IMG/VR virus record: IMGVR_UViG_3300021137_001032
Coordinates: 1-27,749 of that record
Length of the DNA: 27,749 nt
Origin: a virus
Strand: one strand, 5' to 3'
Under the pieces are notes generated by a model that searched no databases, was not told the origin of the DNA, and saw only the letters and a list, made by a program, of their open reading frames with translations. This document shows, in pieces, positions 2,853 to 25,700 of this stretch. Numbering within the stretch: the stretch's first letter is position 1; every line of letters begins with the position of its first letter. Made by a program: the position numbers and the translations under genes.

Positions 2853-3878
2853 ATGTTCAGTAATACTATTTATACATTACCGTATTTCTATATTATAGAA
2901 CATAAAAAAACAAAAATCAAATATGCAGGGGCGCGATGGGCTAAAGGCTGTCATCCATCCGAATTTATGACTATAGGTGGGTATACAACATCATCTAAAA
3001 TGATTAATGAGATAATACAGAAGGACGGGATTGATATTTTTGAAATACTGGAAATTATAACTATAGATGAATTACAAATGCCGTTCGGAACCAACTCTAT
3101 TTTTGTATATGAATCGTGGTTCTTAACATTTCATAACTGTGCAACATCGAGTAACTGGTATAACTGTCATAATAACATGGGCATGGCTTTCGGTACTAAC
3201 TCATTTTATAGTAGTTCTAAACAATCGTGTTTAAGAAAATATGGTGTTGATAATGTTTTTAAATCTGTTGACATACAAGAAAAAATAAAAGAAACCCATA
3301 TGAACAATTTAGGAGTCGAATACCCTATGCAATCGGATCTAGTAAAGAATAAATCGAAAGTTTCTTGTAAAGAAAAGTATGGGTATGAATTTACAGCGCA
3401 GGTACCACATATTCGTAAAAAACAACTACAAACTAGGTTGATGAATAATGATAGTAATTATTTCTCACAACAATCATTAGATAAACGAACAGCCACTTCA
3501 ATTAAAAAATATGGGGTTGACAATCCTATGAAATCATCTAATATAAAGCAAAAAGTTAAAAAAACTAAATTTGCGTTATACGGCGATGAAAATTACAATA
3601 ATATGCAAAAAAATAGGCAAACTAAACAGGAAAAATATGGCGATGAAAATTACAATAATTATGCCAAAAATAGAAAGACCTGTTTAGAAAAATACGGGGT
3701 GGATAATGCATCGAAGTCGGACATAGTAAAGAAAAAAATATGCAATACTATTATGGAAAGACATGGCGTTAATTATATATCTGAAATTATATTAATTTGT
3801 CCATATTGTGGTAAAAGTGGTAGTAAACCTCCCATGACGAGATGGCATTTTGATAACTGCAAATTTAAGGACTTATAA
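2853..3878 (+). CDS. Homing-endonuclease-like protein with repeated KYGVDN modules and C-terminal zinc finger
   Basis: 341 aa. The N-terminal part (YFYIIEHKKTKIKYAGARWA, then GGYTTSSKMINEII) resembles the diverged GIY-YIG-like N-terminus of phage homing endonucleases. The middle carries at least six imperfect repeats of the type KYGVDN-x2-KS-x2-I-x2-K-(I/V)-K-x-T, as in Hef-like phage nucleases. The C-terminus has a Cys/His finger, CPYCGKSG...MTRWHFDNCK, nearly identical to that of the decayed endonuclease ending at 17978. It sits between two membrane-protein genes, and its TAA overlaps the next ATG by 1 nt. It has its own late promoter and hairpin. GGGAGA precedes the start. Its target site is unknown. 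Confidence 0.75.
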   Translation: MFSNTIYTLPYFYIIEHKKTKIKYAGARWAKGCHPSEFMTIGGYTTSSKMINEIIQKDGIDIFEILEIITIDELQMPFGTNSIFVYESWFLTFHNCATSSNWYNCHNNMGMAFGTNSFYSSSKQSCLRKYGVDNVFKSVDIQEKIKETHMNNLGVEYPMQSDLVKNKSKVSCKEKYGYEFTAQVPHIRKKQLQTRLMNNDSNYFSQQSLDKRTATSIKKYGVDNPMKSSNIKQKVKKTKFALYGDENYNNMQKNRQTKQEKYGDENYNNYAKNRKTCLEKYGVDNASKSDIVKKKICNTIMERHGVNYISEIILICPYCGKSGSKPPMTRWHFDNCKFKDL

Positions 3879-5665: not shown

Positions 5666-7720
5666 TTATTTTGTTGTTGCTCGAAGAATTCCATCCCAGT
5701 CTTTGGGAAATGAGATATCTTCACCATATGTTTCTATTCGTTTAATCATCATATCATAATAGTAGTCAAGTGCACCATTAAAAGAACCTTTTAATTCGAG
5801 GCATTCAACTGTTGCTAGCCACCATTGTTGTGATTGATAATAATTAAACATTTTATTGTGTTTTAATCGATGTGCGTGTGAACTATTATTTGGTAATATT
5901 GTATAGATATCTAACCCAATAGTTTTTCCTTTAACTGCTATATCATCCAGTTTAATAACAAAATAATCATTCTCTACAAGTTTAGCAGTTGTGGGGCCAA
6001 TTATTAATAATACACCATAACCTTTGGTTTGTCCTTCTAATCTAGCAGCAGTTGATACTGAATCACCAAGTACATCATACCCAAACCTTGCTTTAGACCC
6101 AATATTTCCGATTAATGTTGGTCCAGTATTAACACCAGCTCCCATACCAATTTTGGGTTTACCTTGTCGTACTAATTGCTCATTAAATTTGTCAACGGCT
6201 TCGATCATTTCTAAAGCAGTTCTTACCGCATTCTTAGCGTGGTATTTATCATCTAATGGTGCCCCATGTACATGTAAACTGGCATCACCTATGAATTTTA
6301 TTAAACACCCATCATTCTTTAATACTGGGTCTGAAATAGCAGTCATATAGTCATTCATGATTTTAGTTAACCCTTCTACATCTTCCCCATATGATTCCCC
6401 AAGAGTTGTAAACCCTCTTAGGTCTGTCATCACTATAGACAGCTCTTTCTTTTCGCCACCAAGTTTAATTAACTCTGGATTCTTCTGAAGTCTTTCAACC
6501 ATTACAGGTGACACATAACTTCCAAATTGTTTCTTGATTTGTTGTTTTTGTAAAAATTCATTTACAAATTTAATTCCATATGCATGTAAAGCAACCAAAA
6601 TAATACCGCTAACTAGTGCAGTGATATCTAAAAGATACAGATATTCTGTAAAAGCAAACCTACTTCCAATAACAATACACATTATGATAATGAAAGTGCT
6701 TGCTAACCCAACATATACCCATCTTGTTAAAATTAGTAAAAGTAAACATGAAAATAGTAGAATCCCTTCTTCAGCGGTATCTGCCCAAAACGGTCGTTGG
6801 ATATTCACGTTATTCATCATTGTACTAATTACCGTTGCTTGCATATCTTGCGGCCAAACACTACCAATACTTGTAGGAACTGGGTTACCTAGTCCAGCAG
6901 CACTTGTACCCACGATTACTATAGCACCATCAAAATCATCAGGTAAATGTTCTAAACTAAGTGATTTATGTTGTTGACTCCAATCTATCCATATACGTCC
7001 TAAGTTATCTGTGCTTATAGTACCAAACTCAGGAATACGCATTTTATCAACACCAAATTCATTCAATTTTACTTGAAATGTTGATACACCTGATGCAACT
7101 CTAAGTGCTTCAATTGCAATACTAGGATACAGTTTTTCATTTACTGATACAACTAGCGGCATACGTCTATTAACACCATCAATTTCTGGTAATGTATTTG
7201 TTGTTCCTACACCAGCAGCATTCATTTCTAATGATTCTATATTTGCAATCAATCCAGGATATTGCACAATTCTATCTAAGTATTCTGAACCAATAACTAC
7301 ACTTCCTGGTGTTTTTGGTAAATTTTTAAATTGCTGAGACGGAACATTGCTTAACACAACAGGAAATTCTGATAAGTATTTTGCAAGTTGGGAATCTTGT
7401 CCACTACGATCCTTATCTGGCATAAGAACATTCCAAACAACTAGACCTGCATTTTTAGAATATAAATCATTAATAATTTTTGCATACTCACCACGTGGGA
7501 ATGGCCATTGACCATATTTGTTTAATGATTCTTCATCAATATTTACAGTAACAACACTATTTTCGGTTGGGTGTTTATTTGCTATTAATGTGTCAAAATA
7601 TCTTAATCTAATTGATTCTACAAATGTCGGGTCTGATATTCTTATAACTAAGATTATTGCTAGTGTAATTAACGCTGTCCACACACTTGTTGCTATTTTT
7701 CTAAGGATCTGTTTGGTCAT
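5666..7720 (-). CDS. CHASE2-domain transmembrane adenylate cyclase
   Basis: 684 aa. After an N-terminal membrane helix, an extracytoplasmic CHASE2 sensor (about residues 35-310: DTLIANKHPTENSVVTVNID, GQWPFPRGEYA, GVNRRMPL) is followed by three membrane helices (about 315-385) and a class III cyclase domain (about 415-585). Catalytic features: metal-binding Asp in VMTDLRGFT and in KFIGDASLH; Lys (IKFIGD) and Asp (GYDVLGD) in the ATP-selecting positions; and the Arg of STAARLE. The Asn usually found before it is Ser (GDSVSTAAR), which I also associate with other CHASE2 cyclases. Predicted product is cAMP. A cyclase in a phage is unusual. It lies downstream of a FecR-domain gene, a pairing I associate with bacterial sensor loci. 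Confidence 0.88.
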   Translation of the reverse strand: MTKQILRKIATSVWTALITLAIILVIRISDPTFVESIRLRYFDTLIANKHPTENSVVTVNIDEESLNKYGQWPFPRGEYAKIINDLYSKNAGLVVWNVLMPDKDRSGQDSQLAKYLSEFPVVLSNVPSQQFKNLPKTPGSVVIGSEYLDRIVQYPGLIANIESLEMNAAGVGTTNTLPEIDGVNRRMPLVVSVNEKLYPSIAIEALRVASGVSTFQVKLNEFGVDKMRIPEFGTISTDNLGRIWIDWSQQHKSLSLEHLPDDFDGAIVIVGTSAAGLGNPVPTSIGSVWPQDMQATVISTMMNNVNIQRPFWADTAEEGILLFSCLLLLILTRWVYVGLASTFIIIMCIVIGSRFAFTEYLYLLDITALVSGIILVALHAYGIKFVNEFLQKQQIKKQFGSYVSPVMVERLQKNPELIKLGGEKKELSIVMTDLRGFTTLGESYGEDVEGLTKIMNDYMTAISDPVLKNDGCLIKFIGDASLHVHGAPLDDKYHAKNAVRTALEMIEAVDKFNEQLVRQGKPKIGMGAGVNTGPTLIGNIGSKARFGYDVLGDSVSTAARLEGQTKGYGVLLIIGPTTAKLVENDYFVIKLDDIAVKGKTIGLDIYTILPNNSSHAHRLKHNKMFNYYQSQQWWLATVECLELKGSFNGALDYYYDMMIKRIETYGEDISFPKDWDGILRATTK

Positions 7721-10141: not shown

Positions 10142-11014
10142 TTAGTTTAATTTGCTTTCTATAAAAGAAACAATAGCACCTGCAACATCGGTATTACAAT
10201 ATTTTTCAAAACCACTAAATCCTGGGTTTGAGTTGGCTTCACATACTCTAAATCCTCGTGAATCAAACAGTAAATCTATACCTGCTATATCTAATTTTAG
10301 TATATTAGCAGCATTTACAGCTATTTCAGCTATTTCTGGGGTTATTTCAAATGATTCACCAGTTCCACCATTTGTAATGTTAGCACGGAAATCTCCATCA
10401 GGTGCAGTTCTTTTCATAGCACCTAGAACTTTCCCACCTATGACCAATACTCTTAAGTCTTCACCAGGTCTTTCACCAATATACTCTTGTGCTATTAATA
10501 CCTTTGTATTATATACAATATTGACAAAATCTACAAATCTTCGATAATCTTCTGTGGTATTACATAAATGAACACCTTCACCAAAACTTCCAACTACTAC
10601 TTTTATAATACATGGAAATCCAATATGTTCATTTACAAGATCATTTGTTATTGGGTGTTTTACTATTATTGTTGTAGGAACCGCAATACCGGCTTTACTT
10701 AATATTTCACCTGAATGAAATTTATCTTGAACTATGTTAATACTATCACTTGAATTAAAACATGGTATATTAGATAGTTCAAAATATCTTACAACTGATA
10801 GATCTTTTCTGCCGATACCAGCACCTACCCTTACTAGAATTGCTTTTGGTAATTCAAGTTTTTCACCATCATAGTAAATACCATCGTTAATTATGATATC
10901 AATTTTTTCAAAATAACAAACTTTAGCGACAATTTCTTTCTCTTCAAACTTTTCGATTAGCTTTGTTGTTTCATATTCGTGTTTACTTTGTTTAGCTAAA
11001 ATTATAACTGACAT
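10142..11014 (-). CDS. RimK-like ATP-grasp ligase
   Basis: 290 aa. ATP-grasp features: ILVRVGAGIGRKDLSVVRYF, the IVQDKFHSGEILSKAGIAVPTT entry, IAQEYIGERPGEDLRVLVIG, MKRTAPDGDFRANITNGG and the metal-binding end CEANSNPGFSGFEKY. This is the RimK/LysX layout; RimK adds glutamate to the C-terminus of ribosomal protein S6, other members ligate amino acids to peptides or small molecules. The natural acceptor here is unknown. AAAGGA precedes the ATG. The start lies 25 nt downstream of the PqqA-like peptide, so the peptide is a possible substrate, but this is only inferred from adjacency. A ribosomal target is the alternative. Confidence 0.82.
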   Translation of the reverse strand: MSVIILAKQSKHEYETTKLIEKFEEKEIVAKVCYFEKIDIIINDGIYYDGEKLELPKAILVRVGAGIGRKDLSVVRYFELSNIPCFNSSDSINIVQDKFHSGEILSKAGIAVPTTIIVKHPITNDLVNEHIGFPCIIKVVVGSFGEGVHLCNTTEDYRRFVDFVNIVYNTKVLIAQEYIGERPGEDLRVLVIGGKVLGAMKRTAPDGDFRANITNGGTGESFEITPEIAEIAVNAANILKLDIAGIDLLFDSRGFRVCEANSNPGFSGFEKYCNTDVAGAIVSFIESKLN

Positions 11015-11039
11015 AAATTCCTTTATATAATGATAATTG

Positions 11040-11114
11040 TTAACGGGTATTGATATAGCAGGTTACTTCAAACCCTAATCTAATATCATTGTATGTAGGT
11101 GTACTCCAAATCAT
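11040..11114 (-). CDS. pqqA: PqqA-like peptide (PQQ precursor), 24 aa
   Basis: The 24-codon frame reads MIWSTP, then NDIRLGFEVTCYINTR. This matches PqqA (M-W-x2-P..D-x-R-x-G-x-E-V-T-x-Y), including the Glu and Tyr (residues 16 and 20, spacing E-x3-Y) that PqqE cross-links to begin pyrroloquinoline quinone synthesis. Length equals that of bacterial PqqA. AGGAG stands 6 nt before the ATG, and GATAAATA about 30 nt upstream gives it a late promoter. No pqqB-E gene is visible, so host enzymes would have to process it. Spacing to the downstream ATP-grasp gene is 25 nt. Alternative: a PqqA-derived peptide for another modification. Confidence 0.85.
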   Translation of the reverse strand: MIWSTPTYNDIRLGFEVTCYINTR

Positions 11115-11143
11115 AATAATTCTCCTAAATTATCTAAGTACGG

Positions 11144-11151
11144 TATTTATC
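11144..11151 (-). promoter_or_regulatory. Late promoter GATAAATA of the pqqA-like gene
   Basis: NATAAATA box in the gap between the PA14-curlin gene and the PqqA-like frame; the leader carries AGGAG. Confidence 0.5.
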
Positions 11152-11172
11152 AAAATTAATATTACAGAAAAA

Positions 11173-12291
11173 TTACTGTCCTTGTTGTACAGAAATTTTA
11201 GGACATCCACCGGTTGTAGCACAGTTGAAGTTTATTGAATATGATTGTTGTAAAGATCCAGCTTGATTTAGACTTAAATCTACTGGTAAACCTGACAACG
11301 TGACATTTGCCATATGATTACCAGAGCCTTGTTGTGTGATATCAACATTTTTATTACCACCACTTAATGTGGTTTCTATATACTGATTGCCATTACCCGA
11401 TTGATTTGTAATTAATGATGAATTATTACCTATTATATTAGCAGAAACTTGTTTACTTCCACCTTCATTTGATTGTGTCAATGATGCGGTATTTGAGTTT
11501 CCTATTATATTTAATGTTGCGTAGTTGGTAGAGGTACTATTGGATGATGATTGTGTAATGTTTACGGAATTACTGTTACCATTGCCATAATAATTTGCGT
11601 AGTTATTTTTAGTACCTGTTTGATTTACGGTTATTGTATTTGCAGACCCAATTTGATCAATATAAACCTTACTATCCGATGTTGCTCTATTGATATAGGA
11701 TTGGATATTGGCATTATCAAATACATTTATAGTAAATGGCGATGATGATGCACCACAACATACTGGTGGAACAAATACATTAACAGATGTTCCTAAGTTT
11801 GTAAATGGAACAACCGCTATGCCACCAATATCCCAGTCAAGTTGTATAACAGCCCCACCACCATTTTCATAATACCAAACATCCATGGTATATATTTGCC
11901 CTGAAGTAAGTAATATACTACCAGAACTATTATAATTTGCCGGACCTTGTTCTATCCAGTTATTGATTACAGTGGTACCATTTATAGTCATATAAAATCC
12001 ATCATCACTACGATCATAAAATGTTACATTTTTCAAACCAGTGTTTGTAGCACCGGGCCACAGAATATATCCAGTAAAGTGTATTAAAACCCCATCGGAT
12101 AATCCACTATTCATAACAACTCCAGAACCCCAATCATAGTTTAACGTATTAGCAACTCCAGATGCTAAGACTGTTCTGTTAGTTGTCATTGATGGTGTTG
12201 CACCACCTGCTGCATATACTGTATAATTTAATCCAGCAATATCAACTGCGTAAACATTAAAACTCAATAAAAATAAAATGATATATCTCAT
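11173..12291 (-). CDS. Secreted PA14-like domain fused to curlin-type repeats
   Basis: 372 aa. Signal peptide MRYIILFLLSFNVYA. Residues about 17-170 look like a PA14 domain (NVTFYDRSDDGFYMTINGTT, ILLTSGQIYTMDVWYYENGG, then IQLDW), a sugar- or surface-binding beta barrel. After a CCGASSS linker, about residues 200-350 carry curlin-like repeats rich in Asn, Ser, Gln and Gly (VYIDQIGSANTITVNQTG; VNITQSSSNS; SLTQSNEGG; VDITQQGSGN). It ends with a Cys pair and QQGQ. A fibre-tethered adhesin exported through CsgG is the natural reading. It overlaps the FecR gene by 4 nt and is last in the curli block. Confidence 0.75.
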   Translation of the reverse strand: MRYIILFLLSFNVYAVDIAGLNYTVYAAGGATPSMTTNRTVLASGVANTLNYDWGSGVVMNSGLSDGVLIHFTGYILWPGATNTGLKNVTFYDRSDDGFYMTINGTTVINNWIEQGPANYNSSGSILLTSGQIYTMDVWYYENGGGAVIQLDWDIGGIAVVPFTNLGTSVNVFVPPVCCGASSSPFTINVFDNANIQSYINRATSDSKVYIDQIGSANTITVNQTGTKNNYANYYGNGNSNSVNITQSSSNSTSTNYATLNIIGNSNTASLTQSNEGGSKQVSANIIGNNSSLITNQSGNGNQYIETTLSGGNKNVDITQQGSGNHMANVTLSGLPVDLSLNQAGSLQQSYSINFNCATTGGCPKISVQQGQ

Positions 12292-13373
12292 TGTTTTGGT
12301 ACTCCTGGATTTTGAATAATTGTAACAATATTTCCACCAGGAGTACCAGTACCTATAACTGCTGCCCCCGGACTATAGTTTTGTGTAATAAATACTGATG
12401 TGTTTGATGCAAAGCCAAATGTTTTTACTTCTGCGTAATCTTGTGAACCTAATACCCTAAATGCAATACCTTTTCCTTTACCTTGTGTATCAGTTGCTGC
12501 TGAATTTTCCCATGAAATACATACATTAGTAGTTGGGTCACACCCATTCTCATTTGCTTCACGTATTAATGAAAGTAATCTTGCTTCGGAATCTTGTGTA
12601 TTTTTGGAAACTTGATTAACTAACCTTCTAGCCATTTCCTCTTCCATTGCTTGAACTTCTTTATCTTTTGGTGATTTACTGGACTCCTTGACTACCTTTT
12701 GCACTTCCAGTGGTTTGACTAGAATAAGGTTATTTGAAATCTTTGATTCTATTATGTTAACAGTTGTTGGTAGACTGGGTGACATTGTTGCACTTTGGAC
12801 ATATGTAGCTTCATATGCTTTATCTAATGATACGGTACCAGCAAGTGTCGTAACATCTATTTTACCTACTGCGCATATATTTTCTTGAAGTTCGTACTGT
12901 TTGATATCTTTTTTATCTTTACAACTTGGTACTAATACTATTAAAGACTGACCAGCTTCATCTACAGTCATTGTGAAATCTGTACCTCTAACTGCAATAG
13001 TAGCTGTAGGTGTTTTTATTCCAACTTGCTGTGGATTATTTTTAGCAATTTGCCCAGATGCATACCTTACTGTACCCATACCTACTTTTAAAGCAAGTTT
13101 TCCAGCATCTGATTGTTTTGGGTCAAACACAAAATCATCTATTAATAATCTACTATTTTCATTTACTTTGACGTTTGTATCATCTTTGAATTTTATATCA
13201 GCAACACAACCACCGGTAATATAAGTGTCCATACTTTCTATTGAAGCACCTTTATTACCTGGTAGTTTTTGTTTATTACGTTCTATTTGGCAGGATATTC
13301 CTTTAGTTTCTCCCACTGAGCCAATATCAGCCCATACATTAGAAGAAACCAACATGAATATAATCCACCACAT
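12288..13373 (-). CDS. Secreted FecR-domain protein
   Basis: 361 aa with an N-terminal signal (MWWIIFMLVSSNVWA). A FecR domain covers about residues 45-160: DTNVKVNENSRLLIDDFVFD, VGMGTVRYASGQI and KTPTATIAVRGTDFTM. After a Lys/Glu-rich stretch that looks coiled-coil (EVQAMEEEMARRLVNQVSK) the C-terminus is repeat-poor and Gly-rich (VFITQNYSPGAAVIGTGTPG), with one ITQ motif like the curlin repeats of its neighbours. FecR domains sense or bind in the envelope; here it lies within the curli block, 1-2 nt after the curlin gene, so it may anchor or nucleate fibres, or sense for the CHASE2 cyclase downstream. Both are inference. Confidence 0.8.
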   Translation of the reverse strand: MWWIIFMLVSSNVWADIGSVGETKGISCQIERNKQKLPGNKGASIESMDTYITGGCVADIKFKDDTNVKVNENSRLLIDDFVFDPKQSDAGKLALKVGMGTVRYASGQIAKNNPQQVGIKTPTATIAVRGTDFTMTVDEAGQSLIVLVPSCKDKKDIKQYELQENICAVGKIDVTTLAGTVSLDKAYEATYVQSATMSPSLPTTVNIIESKISNNLILVKPLEVQKVVKESSKSPKDKEVQAMEEEMARRLVNQVSKNTQDSEARLLSLIREANENGCDPTTNVCISWENSAATDTQGKGKGIAFRVLGSQDYAEVKTFGFASNTSVFITQNYSPGAAVIGTGTPGGNIVTIIQNPGVPKQ

Positions 13374-13374
13374 A

Positions 13375-14160
13375 TTATCTTGCTATTGCTGATTGTGGGC
13401 TCACTATGGTTGCAGAACTTGTTCTAACAGTAACGGTATTGAAGTCACCTTGAGTTAATATATTAACGTTAGTATTGTTTGCACCTTGTTGTTGGGTGTA
13501 TATAACATTACTACTTCCAGTAATATTCTCAACTAAAGAATGAACACCAACATCATTTTGTTGTGTGTTTATAATGTTGCTATTACCTGAAATATTAATA
13601 GTACTATTATCGCTAGAACCTGCTATTCCAGAAGTACTAGTTATATTTTGTGTAACTTGGTTGAAGTTACCAGATGCTGATAAGAAACTGGTAATATAGT
13701 TACCTATTAAATTTTGTAATGATAAGTTGCTATCACCTGTTATTAATTCGGTAATAGTATTATAGTTATTAGATGGATTTCCTTGACTACCAACTGTTAA
13801 TGATGTTTGGTTACTACTTCCAGTAATGGTACTAGTATACATATTGTTACCACCTAGGATATTATATTGCGCCCAATCGTTATTACCATGTTGTGTAATG
13901 TTTAGAATATTGCTACTACCTGTAACGGTTCCATAGTTCAATGCACTTGCTGCTACTGGTGTAACCGATGTAACACCAGCTGAATCAACCGAAATAGTTC
14001 CAGATGTTCCACCAACGGTGTTAGTTCCACCTACTTGTTCAACATTAATAGTATTTGATGTTCCTATTTGTTCTATATAAACATTATTTGGTCCAGTTGA
14101 TATTCCAACTCCAAATGCTGTTTGTGATAGAAATGTTGTTAATAAAAGATATTTTTTCAT
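13375..14160 (-). CDS. Curlin-repeat protein (CsgA/CsgB-like)
   Basis: 261 aa. Signal MKKYLLLTTFLSQTAFG, then repeats with the curlin pattern (S/N-x-I-x-I-x-Q-x-G-x-x-N): NVYIEQIGTSNTINVEQVG, NILNITQHGNNDWAQYNI, NFNQVTQNITS, NSNIINTQQNDVG, SNVIYTQQQGANNTNVNILT. Asn, Ser, Thr, Gly and Gln dominate. Such repeats form amyloid beta-helices secreted through CsgG. It follows csgG by 5 nt with GGAG before the start, so it is the probable substrate of the pore. The N-terminal part is less regular than E. coli CsgA, and the protein is longer (CsgA is about 150 aa). Confidence 0.8.
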   Translation of the reverse strand: MKKYLLLTTFLSQTAFGVGISTGPNNVYIEQIGTSNTINVEQVGGTNTVGGTSGTISVDSAGVTSVTPVAASALNYGTVTGSSNILNITQHGNNDWAQYNILGGNNMYTSTITGSSNQTSLTVGSQGNPSNNYNTITELITGDSNLSLQNLIGNYITSFLSASGNFNQVTQNITSTSGIAGSSDNSTINISGNSNIINTQQNDVGVHSLVENITGSSNVIYTQQQGANNTNVNILTQGDFNTVTVRTSSATIVSPQSAIAR

Positions 14161-14165
14161 TGCTC

Positions 14166-14972
14166 CTACCCCTTAAATGCCCAGATTCCTTTTCTAGCAC
14201 CTTCTTTAATTGTTTCGACAACTGCTGCTTGTATTGCCTTATTAGTAGCTCTATTAATGCTCTCGTTAATAGAACCGCCTACCTCTGCTTCCACTGCCAT
14301 TGTTCCGGCATCTATAAATTTAAGTAATCCAACACGATCTAAATAACTTAAAACAGTTTTAGTGATTGTAACACTAGTTAATACTTCTCCTGTATTAACC
14401 GAAACAGTTCTTAAACTGATAGTTACTGTATCACTTTGGTATTGTGTATCTGCTCCAATACCAAAGAATCTTACACCTGCTCCACCTGTTATTGTATTAG
14501 AATCATATCCTACGATTGACCCTTCTACTATAATACCAGCAAATGTCATAGCAGGCAATGATATTGCATCTTTACCTTGAAATTGTTCACGCATTTGACG
14601 AATCATTTGACGTTCTTTAATCAAATTCTCTAATCCAACACGTTCTACAACTTTAAACCACACACCATTACCAGCATCTTGTAATGCTTTAATCAAGTAT
14701 CCTTCACCACCTTGAGTAACAGCAGAACTTAAACTGGCAATTCCAGTTATTGATTTACGTTGACCAGTTTTATCCATAAAACCATATACTGCAACAGGAA
14801 CAGGTCCACCAACTGGCGGTTTTAATTGATTTTCTTCTTTTTTAAGGTATGTGCTAATACTTTCATTTACCGGATCATCAAACTGTTCACCAGTTAATAA
14901 CTTATGTATAGAACTACCTGTTGCACATCCTTGTAATAATGTTATTGCACATAATATAATAATCTTTTTCAT
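14166..14972 (-). CDS. csgG: CsgG-like outer-membrane curli secretion lipoprotein
   Basis: 268 aa, close to E. coli CsgG (277 aa). Lipobox LLQGC (MKKIIILCAITLLQGCATGS) anchors it in the outer membrane. Family features: PVPVAVYGFMDKTGQRK, VVERVGLENLIKERQMIRQ, then the beta-barrel-forming part (GIIVEGSIVGYDSNTITGGA, GIGADTQYQSDTVTISLR, VNTGEVLTSV) and a helical C-terminus. CsgG forms a nonameric pore that exports curlin subunits. Its start lies 2 nt after the csgF stop, the same pairing as in bacterial csg operons. In a phage the pore could export curlin or disturb the outer membrane. Confidence 0.9.
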   Translation of the reverse strand: MKKIIILCAITLLQGCATGSSIHKLLTGEQFDDPVNESISTYLKKEENQLKPPVGGPVPVAVYGFMDKTGQRKSITGIASLSSAVTQGGEGYLIKALQDAGNGVWFKVVERVGLENLIKERQMIRQMREQFQGKDAISLPAMTFAGIIVEGSIVGYDSNTITGGAGVRFFGIGADTQYQSDTVTISLRTVSVNTGEVLTSVTITKTVLSYLDRVGLLKFIDAGTMAVEAEVGGSINESINRATNKAIQAAVVETIKEGARKGIWAFKG

Positions 14973-14974
14973 AG

Positions 14975-15460
14975 CTAAAAATAAAATGTCCCCGCTGGTA
15001 CTGAAATTTGTGTGGTTTGACTAGGATTTGAGTTGTTGGTAATATTAATTAAAATCATACCATTATTTGAACCACTTCCTAATCCCCAGGTTACCGTATT
15101 CCCACCAAGATCTGGAATTGTTCCACAGACTGTACCTGGTGTAGTACATGTTGGATTTCCAGTCCCACCAAAAATACTATTTGTTAGTTGTTGAGCCAGT
15201 TGTGAATAAATTCTAGATTGTAAATTTGCTATAAATTGTGCCTGTGGTGTATTTGCAGCTGCAGCCTCAGCTTGTTGTTTTATGGCAGCAGCAGCTGCTT
15301 GATTCTGTGATGTCGCTTGGTTTTCTAACTGCTGAATAGTTAATATATGTGAACTATAGCCAGCACCACTGAATGATGGACTATTAAATCCAAATTGTAT
15401 TTCGGCAGCAAAAGATGGCATAGCTGCTAAAAATAATATAAAACCTACTATTTTACTCAT
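14975..15460 (-). CDS. csgF: CsgF-like curli accessory protein
   Basis: 161 aa with a signal peptide (MSKIVGFILFLAAMPSFA). Mature N-terminus EIQFGFNSPSFSGAGYSSHI matches the conserved CsgF start (x-F-x-F-x-N-P-S-F-G-G) that inserts into the CsgG pore and couples it to fibre nucleation. A Gln/Ala-rich helix (QNQAAAAAIKQQAEAAAANT) and a C-terminal domain ending SVPAGTFYF follow. First gene of the curli block; AGGAGC stands 6 nt before the ATG, and a weak TTAAATA box lies upstream. It is somewhat longer than E. coli CsgF (138 aa). Confidence 0.85.
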   Translation of the reverse strand: MSKIVGFILFLAAMPSFAAEIQFGFNSPSFSGAGYSSHILTIQQLENQATSQNQAAAAAIKQQAEAAAANTPQAQFIANLQSRIYSQLAQQLTNSIFGGTGNPTCTTPGTVCGTIPDLGGNTVTWGLGSGSNNGMILINITNNSNPSQTTQISVPAGTFYF

Positions 15461-15516: not shown

Positions 15517-16194
15517 TTAACTAGATGGGAATAGACAGTTATTAATATATTCTACTGCTTCTTCTTCTGACAATCCTAACATCATCAATACTTTAGGATT
15601 GTGTGGGTTAAGACGTTGATTTTCAACATAATATTTATGTTTATTTGAAATATCATCGCTTGTGTTGTTTGTATCAGATAACGATGCTAGATATACGTCT
15701 AATGTATCTGCTATCATATCAGATATTTGCGTTAGCTCTTCATCTGATTGTACGTTACCAGCAGCAATAATATCATTTGAAAATATACGTTGTGCCCATT
15801 CTGGTAATTCACGTTTCTTATTCCAAGATAACTTTGCAGATTCATTTGCAAACCATTCTGATAACGGATGATTATCTGATACTGGACTAAAATCATGAAA
15901 ACAACCTGTGATTTTATTCTTACCAGCAAATACATCAAACCCAAATATTGGAGCAGGATTATGAAAATGTGGATAAATGCAACAATGCATCATCCACAAC
16001 CCACGAGTATCTATTGCATCAATAATATTGACATGTGCTTTTCTATATAAATCAGATTCCCAGGTTAGATTACTCCAACCTGGCTTGTTAAACTGAACAG
16101 CTTCTGGTATATGAATTTCTTCACCTGAATGATCAAATTTATATTTAAATAGCTGACTTATATCAATAAGCGACATTTGAATGTTATTCATCAA
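15517..16194 (-). CDS. pcyX: Ferredoxin-dependent bilin reductase (PcyX/PcyA-like)
   Basis: 225 aa. The central block APIFGFDVFAGKNKITG, then DFSPV, the PEWAQRIFS segment and the C-terminal helix YVENQRLNPHNPKVL with EEAVEYI are hallmarks of ferredoxin-dependent bilin reductases. His70 (WMMH) and Asp87 (FGFD) are spaced as the catalytic His88/Asp105 of PcyA. The enzyme reduces biliverdin IX-alpha to a phycobilin. Phage homologues next to heme oxygenase were described as PcyX, which makes phycoerythrobilin; I assign that name from context, and PcyA- or PebS-like product specificity is not excluded. It overlaps the preceding small gene by 11 nt; electrons would come from host or phage ferredoxin. 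Confidence 0.82.
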   Translation of the reverse strand: MMNNIQMSLIDISQLFKYKFDHSGEEIHIPEAVQFNKPGWSNLTWESDLYRKAHVNIIDAIDTRGLWMMHCCIYPHFHNPAPIFGFDVFAGKNKITGCFHDFSPVSDNHPLSEWFANESAKLSWNKKRELPEWAQRIFSNDIIAAGNVQSDEELTQISDMIADTLDVYLASLSDTNNTSDDISNKHKYYVENQRLNPHNPKVLMMLGLSEEEAVEYINNCLFPSS

Positions 16195-16498
16195 TAGGTA
16201 GCCATGCCCACGATTTTATTATATTCTTAATACTAGGTCTTCGCCTAAATAACCATATTTTACGATGTGGTCTTGTTTTTACAATAAAATCATATGGATC
16301 CATCTGCGTAACTACTTTAGAAAATGGTGATTCTATTCTAATATACCATCCATCATTTTGTGTGCCAATTACGTCTGATGAATACACGTGCTTGCTATAC
16401 GGTTGATATTTGACTTTTATAGATTTACCAAATGATAATAGAACATTTGAAACATATGGTTCACCTTGAATATTTGTTTTTATCTTAATTAGTTTCAT
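16184..16498 (-). CDS. 104-aa hypothetical in the heme-oxygenase cassette
   Basis: Not recognised. Basic at the C-terminus (KTRPHRKIWLFRRRPSIKNI), beta-rich elsewhere (NVLLSFGKSIKVKYQPYSKH, GWYIRIESPF). No signal peptide or metal motif. It overlaps heme oxygenase by 14 nt at its start and the bilin reductase by 11 nt at its end, so the three are almost certainly co-translated and functionally linked. A partner protein or chaperone for the bilin pathway is possible but unproven. Confidence 0.65.
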   Translation of the reverse strand: MKLIKIKTNIQGEPYVSNVLLSFGKSIKVKYQPYSKHVYSSDVIGTQNDGWYIRIESPFSKVVTQMDPYDFIVKTRPHRKIWLFRRRPSIKNIIKSWAWLPIDE

Positions 16499-17027
16499 CC
16501 AATGCCTTCATGATTTTTATAGCCCATTCAAATGCTACTCTAGCTTCATCTCCTAAATCATCAGTTAATTCTGCTCTAATAGCATTTCGTAGACCTTCAA
16601 CATCTTCAAATTGATAGAACTTACCAGAACCTGGAACAGTCTTAGCGATATATTGCCCACCATTCAATGTCCCTAGGTGATGAACATATAAATGAGCTTT
16701 TATTAAATGCTTACGTTCTAAATCGTTGATTAAATCTTGCAGATATCTAATATATTCCAATGTTTCTTGTGTCCACGTGTAATGAATCTCTTTATCAGCT
16801 AATTCAAGAAAATCTTGATAGATATATTTTGTTCTATCAATACCAGATAATTTAGAAAAAAATCCCTGAACTTGCGCTCCAAATTCAATAGTGGAATATA
16901 TTGGGATCATTTGCCACAAATAGTTTATATATAATTCTCTTGGTAATTTTCCTGAAATGATTAATTTCATAAAATCAGTTTGTTCAGCTTGTGTATGTAA
17001 ATCTTTAGTGATTTCGCGTAATGACAT
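16485..17027 (-). CDS. ho1: Heme oxygenase
   Basis: 180 aa, somewhat shorter than bacterial HO (about 200-240 aa). Proximal-ligand helix LREITKDLHTQAE with His11, and the distal helix YVHHLGTLNGGQYIAK with the flexible GxLxGGQ glycines. It oxidises heme to biliverdin IX-alpha, CO and iron. The downstream bilin reductase would use the biliverdin directly. An exact TTGACA-17-TATAAT promoter and AAGGA before the ATG point to early, strong expression. Iron release, bilin production or heme turnover in the infected cell are all conceivable roles. Confidence 0.9.
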   Translation of the reverse strand: MSLREITKDLHTQAEQTDFMKLIISGKLPRELYINYLWQMIPIYSTIEFGAQVQGFFSKLSGIDRTKYIYQDFLELADKEIHYTWTQETLEYIRYLQDLINDLERKHLIKAHLYVHHLGTLNGGQYIAKTVPGSGKFYQFEDVEGLRNAIRAELTDDLGDEARVAFEWAIKIMKALDETN

Positions 17028-17051: not shown

Positions 17052-17080
17052 ATTATAACACTATGATAATATAATGTCAA
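17052..17080 (-). promoter_or_regulatory. Sigma70-type promoter of ho1, TTGACA-17-TATAAT
   Basis: Exact -35 (17080-17075) and -10 (17057-17052) boxes with a 17-bp spacer. The -35 box directly abuts the homing-endonuclease cassette. Confidence 0.85.
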
Positions 17081-17086
17081 GAAAAA

Positions 17087-17094
17087 TATAAATA
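17087..17094 (+). promoter_or_regulatory. Late promoter TATAAATA of homing endonuclease 2
   Basis: Exact box; with T4 spacing the start of transcription is 17100, the first base of the hairpin. Confidence 0.65.
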
Positions 17095-17099
17095 AAGAT

Positions 17100-17129
17100 G
17101 TAGTTCACGGAATTGGCGTTCCCAACTAC
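17100..17129 (+). ncRNA. 5' hairpin of homing endonuclease 2
   Basis: Outer stem GTAGTT/AACTAC (17100-17105/17124-17129), CAC bulge opposite C, inner stem GGAA/TTCC (17109-17112/17119-17122). Same fold as at 2790 and 21211. Confidence 0.75.
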
Positions 17130-17155
17130 ACTAACGTCTATGGAGGACAATCAGC

Positions 17156-17978
17156 ATGAGTATTTATACAGAAATACAACCAACATATCTTTATATAAAA
17201 AAGCATTCAATTACTGGTCTAAAATATTTTGGAAAAACTAGTAAAAAAGACCCATACAAGTATCTAGGATCTGGAAAATATTGGAAAAAACATATCAAAA
17301 AACATGGAAAACAATTTGTAGAAACATTATGGGTTTCAGAATTATATTATGACACTTCAATTATTGACCATGCTTTGCATTTTTCAAATGAAAATAATAT
17401 AGTATTGTCAGATGATTGGGCCAACTTGGTAATGGAAAATGGTATAGATGGAGGGGTATCTGGGGTATCTGGGACATCACCATCGGTAGAAACTAGATCT
17501 AAGTTATCAATCGCTAATAAAGGTCATACAGTGACTCAGGAAACACGCACTAAAATATCATCAGCGCATAAAGGCAACCCGAAATCAAAAGAAACTAGAT
17601 AAAAAATATCAGTTGCAAAAAAAGGCACAATATGTTCTTATGAAACTAAACTAAAATTATCTATTGCTAATAAAGGAAAGATAAAAATCTGATGAAACTA
17701 AAGCAAAATTGTCTATAGCAAATACAGGAAAAAAAGCATCAGCGGATACTTTAATAAAAATGTCTATCGCCGGTAAAAATATTTCTGACGAAACACGTAG
17801 GAAAATGTCTGATTCTAAAAAGGGTAGTATATTATCAGTTGAAGTTAAATCAAAAATTTCAGCTGCACACAAAGGACGAATTTTTAAAACAGCAGAATGT
17901 CCACATTGTAATAAGTCTGGAAGAATTAATAATATGACCAGATATCATTTCAATAATTGTAAATTAAAATATCAATAA
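17156..17978 (+). pseudogene. Decayed GIY-YIG homing endonuclease with NUMOD3 repeats
   Basis: Reading from the ATG at 17156 (GGAGG about 12 nt upstream), a GIY-YIG-like domain (YLYIKKHSITGLKYFGKTSK, KYLGSGKYWKKH) is followed by NUMOD3-type repeats (SVETRSKLSIANKG, TQETRTKISSAHKG). The frame meets TAA at 17600-17602 in the middle of an ETR-x-KIS repeat, most simply AAA to TAA, and near 17680-17692 shifts by one base. Beyond that the repeats continue (SDETKAKLSIANTG, ETRRKMSDSKKG) to a C-terminal finger CPHCNKSG...MTRYHFNNCK. At least two lesions make it inactive, though a 148-aa N-terminal piece could be made. Confidence 0.85.
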
Positions 17979-18861: not shown

Positions 18862-18889
18862 ATTATATCACATTTTTCTTAAATGTCAA
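18862..18889 (-). promoter_or_regulatory. Sigma70-type promoter of hsp20, TTGACA-16-TATAAT
   Basis: Exact boxes with an extended -10 (TGATATAAT). The TTGACA contains the TGA stop of dnaK. Confidence 0.85.
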
Positions 18890-20778
18890 ACTTCAGTGAA
18901 TTCAGCATCCAACGGTTCGTCAGAATTAGCTTCTGATGATGTTTGTTTAGCTTGTTCAGCTTCTTGTTTTTTTGCAAATACTGGACTTGCTGCTTCATAC
19001 AATTTTGTTACTGAATTGGTAATTGCCTCAACATCATCACCTTTGGTAGCTTCTTCAACTTTAGATAATGCTGATTCAAACGCTAGTTTTTCATCATCTG
19101 ATAATTGGTCAGCAACTTCATCAAAGTCTTTTTCTAATGAATGTTTTTGAGCATCGGCATTATTACGAGCTTCAATTAGTTCTTTAGCTTTTTTATCAGC
19201 ATCTGCATTTGCTTCGGCATCTTTTATCATTTGTTCAATTTCAGATTCACTTAATCCAGAATCAGATTTAATGGTAATATTATTTTTCTTACCAGTACCT
19301 TTATCTTGTGCTGATATATGCATAATACCATTAGCATCAATATCAAAGGTTACTTCAATTTGTGGAACGCCACGACGAGCTGGTTCAATACCTTCCAAAT
19401 TAAATTCACCTAATTGTTTGTTATATTGATATAACTCACGTTCACCTTGCCCAACTTTAATATTTACTGCAGGTTGGTTGTCATCCGCAGTTGAGAATAC
19501 TTGACTAGCTTTTGTAGGGATCGTAGTATTCTTTTGAATGATTTTGGTAAACACACCACCCATTGTTTCAATACCCAATGACAATGGTGTAACATCCAAT
19601 AATAATACGTCAGTTTTATCACCTGACAATACTGCACCTTGGACCGCAGCACCAGCCGCAACTGCTTCATCTGGGTTAACATCTTTACGTGGTGCTTTGC
19701 CAAATAGTTTTTCAACTGCTTCTTGTACTTTGGGCATACGTGTTTGACCACCAACTAAAATAATTTCATCAATATCTGATAATTTTACTTTAGCGTCTTT
19801 AATAGCAATTTTACATGGGGCAATACTTCTTTCAATTAAATCTTCTACTAATGCTTCAAATTTAGCACGAGTTAATTTAACATTCAAATGTTTTGGACCA
19901 CTTGCATCTGCTGTTAGGTATGGTAGATTAACGTCTGTTTGTTCAGCTGATGATAATTCAATTTTAGCTTTTTCAGCTGCTTCTTTTAAACGTTGCAATG
20001 CTAATGTATCATTTTTAAGATCAACACCACTATCTTTCTTAAATTCAGTTACTAAGAAATCCATGATACGTTGATCGAAATCTTCACCACCTAAGAATGT
20101 ATCACCATTAGTTGATAATACTTCAATTTGTTTCTCACCATCTATGTTTGAGATTTCAATGATAGAGATATCAAATGTACCACCACCTAAGTCATAAACA
20201 GCAACTTTGCTATCTATATTATCTTTTTTATCAACACCAAATGCTAATGCAGCAGCAGTAGGTTCATTGATGATACGCAATACTTCTAGCCCAGCAATAC
20301 GGCCAGCATCTTTAGTTGCTTGTCTTTGTGAATCATTGAAATATGCAGGAACTGTGATAACAGCTTGTGATACAGAATATCCTAAATAATCTTCTGCAGT
20401 TTTCTTCATTTTACGAAGAACTTCGGCTGATATTTGTGGTGGGGCTAATTTCTCACCATTTGCTTCGACCCAAGCATCTCCATTATCTGCTTCCAGAATA
20501 GTGTATGGCATTAAGTCTATGTCTTTTTGAACTGCGTCTTCAGCAAATTTACGACCAATCAAACGCTTTGCAGCATAGATTGTATTTTTTGGATTAGTTA
20601 CTGATTGACGTTTTGCTGCAGCACCAACTAAAACTTCATTGTCAGTGTATGCTATGATAGAAGGCGTTGTTCTTGTACCTTCTGAATTTTCGATTACTTT
20701 TGCTGAACCATTTTCTAAAATAGCTACGCAAGAATTTGTAGTACCTAAATCGATACCGATGACTGTATTTTTACTCAT
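18886..20778 (-). CDS. dnaK: DnaK (Hsp70) chaperone
   Basis: 630 aa from the ATG at 20778, chosen because AGGAG stands before it and DnaK proteins begin M[13 protein letters not shown]. Complete: nucleotide-binding domain ([34 protein letters not shown]), linker [19 protein letters not shown], substrate-binding beta domain, helical lid ([20 protein letters not shown]) and an acidic end [10 protein letters not shown] similar to bacterial DnaK tails. Length equals host DnaK (about 638), so this is a full chaperone. Upstream lies a late GATAAATA box and a leader hairpin sharing its loop with hsp20. No dnaJ or grpE is seen. Confidence 0.96.
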
Positions 20779-20823
20779 AATATTTTCTCCTTTTATTAAG
20801 CGAGGTGTTATTGGCATTATGCC

Positions 20824-20854
20824 ATATATTAAACCCAATTGGCATTTAATATAT
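20824..20854 (-). promoter_or_regulatory. dnaK leader hairpin with conserved 11-nt loop
   Basis: Minus strand: perfect 10-bp stem ATATATTAAA/TTTAATATAT around loop TGCCAATTGGG (20844-20834), followed by GGCATAATGCC. Downstream, GCTTAATA-x-AAGGAGAAAATA is shared with the hsp20 leader. Confidence 0.65.
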
Positions 20855-21131: not shown

Positions 21132-21162
21132 TTTATTTAATCCAATGTTTTATTAGATGAAT

Positions 21163-21191
21163 ATTATACTATAGATTACTATATCTGTCAA
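21163..21191 (-). promoter_or_regulatory. Sigma70-type promoter of mazG, TTGACA-17-TATAAT
   Basis: Exact boxes (21191-21186; 21168-21163). Divergent to the late promoter of homing endonuclease 3. Confidence 0.85.
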
Positions 21192-21197
21192 GAAAAA

Positions 21198-21205
21198 TAT
21201 AAATA
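21198..21205 (+). promoter_or_regulatory. Late promoter TATAAATA of homing endonuclease 3
   Basis: Exact box; predicted start 21211, the first base of the hairpin. Confidence 0.65.
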
Positions 21206-21210
21206 AAGAT

Positions 21211-21240
21211 GTAGTTCGCGGAATGGGGATTCCCAACTAC
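21211..21240 (+). ncRNA. 5' hairpin of homing endonuclease 3
   Basis: Outer stem GTAGTT/AACTAC (21211-21216/21235-21240), CGC bulge opposite C, inner stem GGAAT/ATTCC (21220-21224/21229-21233), loop GGGG. Confidence 0.75.
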
Positions 21241-21265
21241 TTTAATACTGAAAAGGAGTATCAAC

Positions 21266-22117
21266 ATGAGTATTTATGATAATACTATAACACCAACATT
21301 TTTATATATAAAACAACATTCGGTTACCGGCTTAAAATATTTTGGCAAAACAACTAGAAATCCTATTAAATATATGGGTTCTGGGAAATATTGGAAAACA
21401 CATATTGTCAAACATGGAATAGAATTTGTAGAAACGGTATGGGTTTCCGAACCATATACGGATAAAAATCAAATTAAAGAAATTGCATTAAAATTTTCAA
21501 TAGAAAACAATATAGTAGAATCTAACGAATGGGCTAATTTAATACCAGAAAATGGGCTAGATGGTGGAAATTCAACGGGTAGAAAACATTCTGATGAAAC
21601 AATTGAAAAAATAAAATTTGCAAAGTCATCCAAGACGCACGTAGAAAAAATGTCAATTAAAGAAAAGATAGCCGCCGCAAGAAATTCTAAATCTATCACA
21701 GAAAAACTTGATATTGAACATAGAAGAATGACTACTTTGCTATCTAAAACACTGGAAGAAAAAAAGGCAATTAAAGAAAAGACAGCTACTACTAAAAAAT
21801 CAAAAACATTAGAAGAAAAATTAGTAATAAAAGAAAAATTTAAACAGTCAATACTGAACCGAACTCCTGAACAACGCCTTCAATCTAAACTAAAACAAGC
21901 CAATTCTGTCAAAGAACAAACTCCTGAGCAAAGAATAGCCATTAAAGAAAAAACATGTAAAACATACATAGTGACATCACCGGATGGTAAAGCAACCACT
22001 ATTTTAGGATTATCACCATTTTGCCGAGAAAACAACTTAAATGTTGGAAATATGCACGCGGTCATACGAGGAACACGTGCACATCATAAAGGTTGGACTT
22101 GCACAAAAGTTAACTGA
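21266..22117 (+). CDS. GIY-YIG homing endonuclease, intact
   Basis: 283 aa. Diverged GIY-YIG domain at residues 8-95 (FLYIKQHSVTGLKYFGKTTR, IKYMGSGKYWKTHI), highly similar to the decayed gene at 17156. The middle is a long Lys/Glu-rich series (KEKIAAARNSKS; TLEEKKAIKEKTATTKK; TPEQRIAIKEKTCK). The C-terminus (ILGLSPFCRENNLNVGNMHA, then GTRAHHKGWTC) is a NUMOD1/IENR-type DNA-recognition helix-turn-helix instead of the zinc finger of the other two. AGGAG precedes the ATG. It lies between the mazG promoter and a truncated MazG-like start on the other strand, overlapping the latter by 8 nt, so its insertion probably cut a gene. Confidence 0.85.
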   Translation: MSIYDNTITPTFLYIKQHSVTGLKYFGKTTRNPIKYMGSGKYWKTHIVKHGIEFVETVWVSEPYTDKNQIKEIALKFSIENNIVESNEWANLIPENGLDGGNSTGRKHSDETIEKIKFAKSSKTHVEKMSIKEKIAAARNSKSITEKLDIEHRRMTTLLSKTLEEKKAIKEKTATTKKSKTLEEKLVIKEKFKQSILNRTPEQRLQSKLKQANSVKEQTPEQRIAIKEKTCKTYIVTSPDGKATTILGLSPFCRENNLNVGNMHAVIRGTRAHHKGWTCTKVN

Positions 22118-22705: not shown

Positions 22706-25700
22706 TACACAGCTCCTTCAATAAACTCTTTTACTTCATTATTTGTCCAAGATTTTGAGATATCAAATGGAGGCAAATATTTTAATGCATATGCAAATCC
22801 ATAACCATCAAGTTCTTTCCACTTTCTTGTATGTTCTAAGAAGTACTCAGAAAAAATGAATGATTTGATATTATTAACTTCAGTTTCATTATTTACTTTT
22901 ATACACATATACCCGACATCAAAATCAAGATCTGAAACAATTGATGCTTCTTCAGTAATCATTTTTGTCATTGCAATAGAAAACTTTAATTCCCCAAAAA
23001 AGTATGGGGTATTTTTTGTATAGTACGTTAATAATGGCACACCTTTATTCAATTTATATAATGCATTTGTATGTACGGCATCTTTAACTTTAACAGACGA
23101 CTTCCCAAAGTTATTTTGACAAAACATACGTTTTGATGGTTTGTCTGTTAATTCTTTTAATTTATAATATAATGTTACAAAATCTTTATCAACTTTGCTA
23201 TATTTTACTATAGCGTTGTTTTGTGGTTGATAATCTATAACATCATCGTACATAACTTTAACATCACCAGTATATGTTCTATCAATAGTCCATGAACATA
23301 TTCCAACACCAACATTAAAATATTTATTGACGTTATAATTTACTAATTTAAGACCATGTTCTCCAATTATTGAATATCTTGAAGAATTCTTAAGTAGTGA
23401 TTCTGGTGTTACTAATGTTATTGACCCATCAGGACTTAATATTTCTAAAAGTTTCTTACAAATAAACGTATAGATCTTATTTTGACCACCATCTTTAGTA
23501 CCGTCTTGGTATGGTGGGTTTCCTATTGCCACGTGAAATTCTTTACCTTGCATTTTGAAATCCTTTTCAATATTGCATAGATCTTTATAGTCTACGACTT
23601 CAAACCCAAGTGATTTCAAATATTGTTTGTGATAGTCAAATATTTCTACACAAATAATTTTTGAATCTGGGTATTGCTCTCTTAAAGCTAATGGAATACT
23701 ACCATTAAGTGCATTAATAACAAGAATAATACTTTTGTCTTTTGCACCTGAGATATTACTAACTAATTCATCAGCTAACGCAAAATCCGTATATACTAAT
23801 CCTTTTCTTTGTTTGAATTCTGAATTATCAAACAACAGTGGGTATATTTGTCTTTCTGTTAATGATGAATATGCATTCTTTTTTTCTTTGAAATCTTTAT
23901 TAAGCATTTTTTTAAATTCTCGTGAATTTTTTGCAGCTTTTAAGATTGCATCGATTACTTCCTTGCCATATATTGCAATAAGATCTTCATTTTTGAAGAC
24001 TTTACGATAATCATAGCATTTTGTATAATAACATACTACTCTTGAATCTCCTATTAAAGACTGTATTGTATCTTTAATATTTAACTCTAAGTTTGCTACT
24101 TCTTTAGGAGTTGGGATATTCCCATTTATTCTTGTAATAATTTTAGATTTGGATCCGTTTGAATCACTAACCTCATGTGTACATTTTTTATTACCAGAAT
24201 TAACCAACTCTAACTTAGCAAACTCATTGATATCAAATGATGATACTACTTTTTTCAATTGTACATCTGGTAGTTTGCCATTTTTAACTTGCTTTTCACA
24301 CCATTCTTGAGTATATTCTAAAATCTGAATTGAATTAACATCTCGTCTTGACCCATCTACATCAAAGTCGGTAAATGAAATCATATCTAAGAATGATAAA
24401 ATTTGTTCACCATTTGACCCATCCGCTTTAGCAAGTCTTCCAATCATTATTTGTAGGTTATACCCAGGTGTTAATGAATACACTTTAACTCTATCTTTAC
24501 CTTTGTAAATACGAATTAATCTACCTAGTAACTGCTCAAAACCACAAAGGCTTTCGATTTTGTCAAACATTACTAAATGCCCTAGTGATGGGATATCAGT
24601 ACCAGTTGTAAATTTTCTACAAGTTAATATTATAACATTCTTACCAATATTATCATCTAACAATCCCTGAATAAAATCTCCAGTTGTTATGTATTTTGGA
24701 CATTGATCACTAATTTCATAACTAGAAATAAATACTGTATGAGTTTGATATGAATTAAGAGTTTTTGCCAATAATGGAATATAATAATCTGCTGAAATTT
24801 CACCAGCGCCAATTGGTAATACCCACATTCCATTTCTTTTAGCTACGTCACTTAATGAAGTATCATTGGTAATACTCATTGAATTTTTAAATTTAGATTG
24901 GTTGGTATTATAACACAATTCAACAATTCGGTGTAGTTCAAGAGAATGTACAAAATTACCCTCTTGCATTGCAAATAACTTTTGTGGAGAAAATCCTTCT
25001 TCAATTGAATATATATCTTTTAATACTGGTGATACGTTGCAGAATGGGGTGTTAAAAGTTTCCATTTTTATAGATGGAATCTTAGTATAATGGGTATTTC
25101 TAACAGCCCATGGAAGCCCACGTAGTATACATTGATCTGGATCGTATTGATCCATAATTTCATATGGAGTTGCGGTCAAATCTAATGTATAAGTTGCGTT
25201 AATGTTTTCAAATTTTGCAGAAGTGACGTCACCTTCGTATTGAAAATGTCTTTCGTCACAAATCCATAAATCTACATTTCCAGTAAGTTCTACATATTTT
25301 TCACGAATTTTGTTCTTTGCAGTGTTCATTTGGTCATAACGAATATCCTGAACACTAAGTACCACTATAATAATCTCTTTATTTGCAGCACGTCTATGAA
25401 TTTCAGATATCGACGTCTTACTAAATTCTTTAGATTCCATAATTGTGATAATAACCTTTCGGTCACCGCCAAAATGATAAGAATTAACATTTGAAATCAA
25501 TGTTTTCATCGTATCAACGATTGGTGTTGTAACTAAACATACTCCACCGTTTGTTAATAGATTAGCTGTGATTTCTAGTGAAGTAAGTGTTTTACCAAAA
25601 CTTGGATATGCAGCCAACAAACAGCGGCCTGTACTTTTGAGAATATTAACTGCTTCAGTAATAACTGGAGCTTGATAGATTCTTGGTACTGATGGTTTAT

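Follow-up and report, generated by a model that had tools for sequence, protein, structure and literature searches.

A stand-alone gene for a PqqA-family precursor peptide in a phage genome and its recurrence in other phages

The pqqA frame and its phage setting

The DNA analysed here, referred to as the window, is the complete IMG/VR record IMGVR_UViG_3300021137_001032 (27,749 nucleotides; 27.7 kb), in which a minus-strand frame of 24 codons lies between a gene for a RimK-like ATP-grasp ligase and a curli-type gene module (Table 1). An earlier sequence-only reading had placed a PqqA-like frame at exactly this interval, leaving the strand unstated; the plus-strand reading of the same bases is interrupted by a stop. 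The encoded 24-residue peptide contains RLGFEVTCY, which follows the pattern R-x-G-F-E-V-T-x-Y with its Glu-x3-Tyr pair, and scores above the curated cut-offs of both PF08042, the Pfam PqqA family (E 7.4e-8, 32.7 bits; cut-off 21.1), and the TIGR02107 equivalog (E 3.8e-10, 39.4 bits; cut-off 20), in agreement with the PqqA signature, including E-V-T-x-Y, that had been recognised from the sequence. A six-frame PqqA search of the whole record returned this frame as its sole match (E 2.0e-8). In addition, of the three occurrences of the loose motif E[VILM][TS].Y across the six frames, only the one in the pqqA frame is accompanied by the remainder of the PqqA pattern. The frame is thereby confirmed as a PqqA-family precursor gene and not a chance occurrence. 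Within E-V-T-C-Y, the Glu and Tyr are predicted to supply the atoms of PQQ; the position separating Thr from Tyr is occupied by Cys in this peptide and by Met or Leu in the other peptides compared.

Table 1. Features of the window, with positions counted from its first letter.
Feature	Positions	Strand	Basis and remarks
Homing-endonuclease-like genes	2853-3875, 17156-17978, 21266-22114		
CHASE2-nucleotide cyclase	5666..7720	(-)	context; best phage matches Melnitz and HTVC008M
RimK-like ATP-grasp ligase, downstream gene	10142..11014	(-)	context
pqqA-bearing segment missing from relative L126	11029..11194	(-)	comparison with relative
pqqA, PQQ precursor peptide of 24 aa, MIWSTPTYNDIRLGFEVTCYINTR	11040..11114	(-)	profile matches and translation; ATG at 11114, stop at 11040
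Shine-Dalgarno AGGAG	11122..11126	(-)	sequence; 7 nt before ATG
GATAAATA, T4/cyanophage late-promoter-like (cf. NATAAATA)	11144..11151	(-)	29 nt before ATG
PA14 and curlin-repeat protein, upstream gene	11173..12291	(-)	context
FecR, curlin-type, CsgG and CsgF genes of a curli-type module	12288..15460	(-)	context; syntenic with Melnitz
Heme oxygenase adjoining ferredoxin-dependent bilin reductase	15520-17027		
DnaK, full-length	18886-20838		
Fusion protein of 1149 aa: helicase/ResIII part and Eco57I-type methylase part	22708-26154		

The ribosome-binding site, described as good by the sequence-only reading, precedes the start codon, and further upstream lies a motif resembling NATAAATA, the cyanomyovirus late promoter consensus (PMC2984593). 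The window contains 13 copies of the motif ATAAATAC, where 4.3 would be expected and none of 100 shuffles reached that count; of the 38 listed gene starts, 8 have ATAAATA no more than 60 nt upstream, versus 1.0 at random (0 of 500 randomisations). Because the late-promoter-like GATAAATA stands upstream of it, pqqA may be expressed late in infection. No Rfam family was matched in the window.

With respect to genomic context, the window shares more than 17 kb of sequence at 100% identity with two other IMG/VR contigs, 3300020682_000046 and 3300020724_000225, which reach beyond it by about 25 kb on the left and 10 kb on the right and extend the sequence of this phage to about 62 kb. Their additional genes encode a long-tail-fibre-like protein, a phage ATP-dependent DNA ligase, a phage-type RNA-binding protein and a Nol-like carbamoyltransferase. 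Tail-fibre proteins and virion structural proteins are encoded on the 88-kb contig of a relative, L126, and one of them has its best match in Synechococcus T4-like phages. In the window itself, the order CsgF-CsgG-curlin-FecR-curlin, with the CHASE2-cyclase further on, is the same as in the Methylophilales phage Melnitz. From the phage genes on these contigs and the synteny, the window lies in a genuine phage genome, as had been proposed. Features reminiscent of T4-like (Kyanoviridae-like) phages comprise a cyanophage-type virion structural protein, T4-type tail-fibre matches and the late-promoter-like motif. No capsid or terminase gene was recognised in the window, and for T4 core genes (gp23, terminase, polymerase type) no Melnitz core protein found a match in the available fragments; for this reason the phage is described only as a myophage-like caudovirus that has a module in common with Melnitz.

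Several further features of the window deserve mention. The curli-type module as a whole (11173-15460) encodes CsgF, CsgG, FecR and two curlin-like proteins, one of them with PA14; the Melnitz record annotates the same curli set, although the Melnitz paper calls csgA and csgB missing. The adjoining heme oxygenase and bilin reductase genes form a cyanophage-style pair, in a phage with a beta/gammaproteobacterial-looking DnaK. With regard to the homing-endonuclease-like genes, two segments, 17054-17341 and 21149-21567, show approximately 74-78% DNA identity to other copies. Hsp20-like and other host-like genes are also carried by the window.

The absence of pqqBCDE noted earlier extends beyond the window: no other pqq gene is seen in the window, and profile searches of the two longer identical contigs yielded neither a PqqE above the cut-off nor a PQQ alcohol dehydrogenase. 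The usual linkage of pqqA to pqqBCDE is therefore missing here. Such linkage is usual and not obligatory, however, as extra chromosomal copies of pqqA stand alone (PMC9851590).

Insertion, recurrence and selection of phage pqqA

The nearest non-identical relative, L126 (71% DNA identity), keeps the curlin-RimK junction, at which 166 bases of the window (11029-11194) correspond to a 32-base spacer; no pqqA was found elsewhere on its 88-kb contig. Since the junction is retained there without pqqA, the gene is accessory. The search for the same frame in related contigs, suggested earlier as a check, recovered it in the identical contigs and not in this next relative. Among 24 contigs found via the neighbouring RimK gene, PqqA occurs in three (the two identical contigs and one distant contig with two copies), and pqqA has no counterpart in the other 21. 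In Melnitz, pqqA sits at another site, beside a tRNA-Leu gene. Given this different site and the patchy distribution among RimK-related contigs, pqqA has probably been gained more than once. A 94.5-kb viral contig (L146 / G018) contains two separate pqqA genes, one of which lies just downstream of rimK and is followed by a terminator-like hairpin. A pqqA-rimK functional pair was considered and rejected as a rule, as a rimK match was found in 0 of the 120 other pqqA contigs listed, within the stretches examined.

With a Methylophilaceae-type PqqA as query, 12 of 50,697 phage records gave matches: nine belong to isolated Methylophilales/Methylophilaceae phages, one is from an uncultured phage, and a single 'phage' accounts for the other two. 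The nine isolates (four Melnitz strains, P19250A, Venkman, MEP301, MEP401 and MEP402) belong to several unrelated lineages. PqqA is annotated in none of the matching phage records; at the match sites in Melnitz and MW202481 the annotated feature lies on the opposite strand and is called a hypothetical protein, and no phage pqqA is mentioned in the publications on Melnitz, Venkman, MEP301 and MEP401/402. The gene has probably been overlooked because it falls below gene-calling limits, in line with the earlier remark that 24 codons are fewer than usual ORF-calling cut-offs allow. 'Acinetobacter phage MD-2021a' was rejected as a case of phage pqqA, the opened record being plainly bacterial with a whole pqqABCDE operon. 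This GenBank entry, CAKLQF020000010.1, holds bacterial chromosome, and CAKLQH020000055.1 probably does likewise.

A pattern scan of IMG/VR returned at least 120 contigs, and nearly all of those listed show a PqqA-like frame on inspection. Among the matches listed, 89 of 120 pqqA contigs have proteins in common with the isolated phages that served as a yardstick, and for 72 of them there are at least two such proteins. Phage pqqA is usually alone, since among the 50 longer pqqA contigs in the matches listed, PqqE above the cut-off was found in none and a PQQ alcohol dehydrogenase in one. A 72-kb viral contig (L043 / G038) carries pqqA close to a cyclase of the curli-module type, together with a PQQ alcohol (methanol-type) dehydrogenase, and is possibly a second case like the Lake Baikal virus VP_266 discussed below.

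Selection was estimated for the pqqA of other phages as a group, from the nine codons preceding the scan pattern; only these were measured because the pattern fixes Glu and Tyr by construction. The pN/pS ratio is 0.33 in frame, compared with 1.6 and 2.2 in the other two frames. As estimated from these codons in other phages, purifying selection acts on phage pqqA as a group; in the lineage of the window copy, all known copies are identical.

Host-side pqqA and candidate hosts

PqqA was detected in all 80 Methylophilaceae genomes, with a mean of 4.46 copies, and 78 PqqE in 76 genomes, i.e. about 4.5 pqqA per pqqE. Cultured members of the family have been described with 3-12 pqqA genes and one pqqBCDE (PMC4109929). 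The common viral peptide (23 aa) is identical to host Methylophilaceae PqqA. The window peptide is not of the Methylophilaceae type, being 48% identical to the copies found in a single Methylophilaceae genome and reaching 78% identity with other gammaproteobacterial PqqA. Homologues occur in plausible hosts, with 47 of 369 genomes of the class matching the window peptide at E<=0.001.

The host is most likely a PQQ-making beta- or gammaproteobacterium. The possibility that the owners of the closest bacterial PqqA are methanotrophs was rejected: pMMO/AMO was found in 3 of 25 searched, and the owners of the closest peptides were without it. Polynucleobacter was likewise set aside as a pqq host, no PqqA being found in 61 genomes by a search in which no control matched; in Limnohabitans, PqqA was present in 6 of 41 genomes. 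The phage DnaK is approximately 70-76% identical to Burkholderiales DnaK and has a very long branch. In the DnaK tree it falls on the Burkholderiales side, and because its end branch is 1.28 and no well-supported set holds it, the tree is not taken as proof of the host.

Proposed role and significance

These observations make it likely that the phage pqqA is a genuine stand-alone auxiliary metabolic gene feeding PQQ synthesis in the host. The 24-residue peptide would be made late in infection, a timing suggested by the promoter-like motif; its Glu and Tyr would then be cross-linked by the host's PqqD and PqqE, with the completion of PQQ left to host proteases, PqqB and PqqC. One peptide is used per PQQ, and therefore extra precursor copies could raise or sustain PQQ output without any phage-borne enzyme, so that periplasmic PQQ dehydrogenases of the methanol/alcohol type would stay loaded while host gene expression declines. 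By analogy, an added phage precursor gene probably follows the Methylophilaceae logic of many precursor genes and one enzyme set. The substrate-only idea of the sequence-only reading is thus better supported than before, through recurrence in phages of PQQ-using methylotrophs and through the multi-copy pqqA of their hosts. In Acetobacter, overexpression of pqqAB increased PQQ by 29%, as against eight-fold for the whole operon (PMC7936290), which indicates that extra precursor can help and is not the sole limit.

An alternative explanation, considered unlikely, is that pqqA is a passenger, i.e. a host fragment caught by recombination, translated or not, that confers no benefit and is soon lost. 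The lack of pqqA in L126 and in 21 of 24 RimK-related contigs is compatible with this, as is the unusual Cys before Tyr. However, the frame is intact and equipped with a ribosome-binding site and its own promoter-like motif, the gene has probably been gained repeatedly by unrelated phages, all of which infect methylotrophs where hosts are known, and phage pqqA as a group is under purifying selection. It is quite improbable that the peptide acts outside PQQ synthesis, whether as a regulator or competitor of PqqD/PqqE or because a different enzyme, for instance the neighbouring RimK-like ligase, uses it as substrate. The direct adjacency of pqqA and rimK in the window and in the distantly related L146 would fit such a role, and the variable position, being occupied by Cys, could change how the peptide is processed; what speaks against such a role is the missing rimK match in the other 120 contigs listed, within the stretches examined, the retention of the residues joined by PqqE and the identity of the common viral peptide to host PqqA. 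The notion that the window is chimeric or of bacterial origin, prompted by its lack of a recognisable capsid or terminase gene, its DnaK, Hsp20-like and other host-like genes and the plainly bacterial GenBank 'phage' with pqqA, is already largely refuted by the two identical contigs encoding phage proteins, the synteny with a cultured phage, the virion structural proteins of L126 and the precision of the pqqA insertion, and is hardly credible.

Phage-encoded PqqA is not without precedent, and the suggestion that no characterised case was known does not hold. In 2020, the Lake Baikal virus VP_266 was reported to encode PqqA and a methanol dehydrogenase, proposed to raise PQQ for methanol oxidation (PMC7678222), and phage PqqA also appears in a gene list from 2026 (PMC13188868). 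Compared by description and not by peptide sequence, VP_266 resembles the present phage in encoding PqqA with the same proposed role, and differs in its methanol dehydrogenase, none having been found on the contigs that extend the window phage to about 62 kb. Melnitz (pqqA at 76134-76205), P19250A, Venkman, MEP301, MEP401 and MEP402 share a lone PqqA frame below ORF cut-offs, and Melnitz also has the curli/cyclase module in common with the window, whereas these six differ in their insertion sites, in peptides that are 38-54% identical where aligned and in having known Methylophilaceae-group hosts. The stand-alone pqqA genes of Methylophilaceae are similar as additional precursor genes located outside the pqqABCDE operon (PMC4109929, PMC9851590), and differ in being chromosomal and in encoding a peptide about 48% identical to that of the window. 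New in the present analysis are the breadth of the phenomenon, the rule that the gene occurs alone, the promoter motif, the exactly defined site that lacks the gene in a relative, and the copies that had gone unnoticed in cultured phages.

Auxiliary metabolic genes of cyanophages, such as those of photosynthesis, derive from the host and are considered to support its energy metabolism while infection proceeds. They encode enzymes or photosystem proteins, whereas the pqqA of the window encodes a substrate peptide consumed for a cofactor. On balance, the evidence leans slightly towards substrate-only help as a general phage strategy, in which unrelated phages of PQQ-dependent bacteria repeatedly take only the gene for the precursor peptide of a ribosomally made cofactor, mirroring the excess of pqqA over pqqB-E in their hosts, and go unnoticed below gene-calling limits; the window would add a non-Methylophilaceae host type. 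Since nine cultured methylophages carry unannotated pqqA, this idea is directly testable in culture pairs such as Melnitz/H5P1. More broadly, genes for peptides of about 24 aa, which gene callers pass over, can recur in phages as metabolic genes, and pqqA would, if the proposal is true, serve as an easy marker of phages whose hosts depend on PQQ. Methanol oxidation, one of the steps by which methane and C1 carbon are cycled, is driven by PQQ dehydrogenases, and infection may sustain or raise it if carriage of the PQQ precursor is routine among phages.
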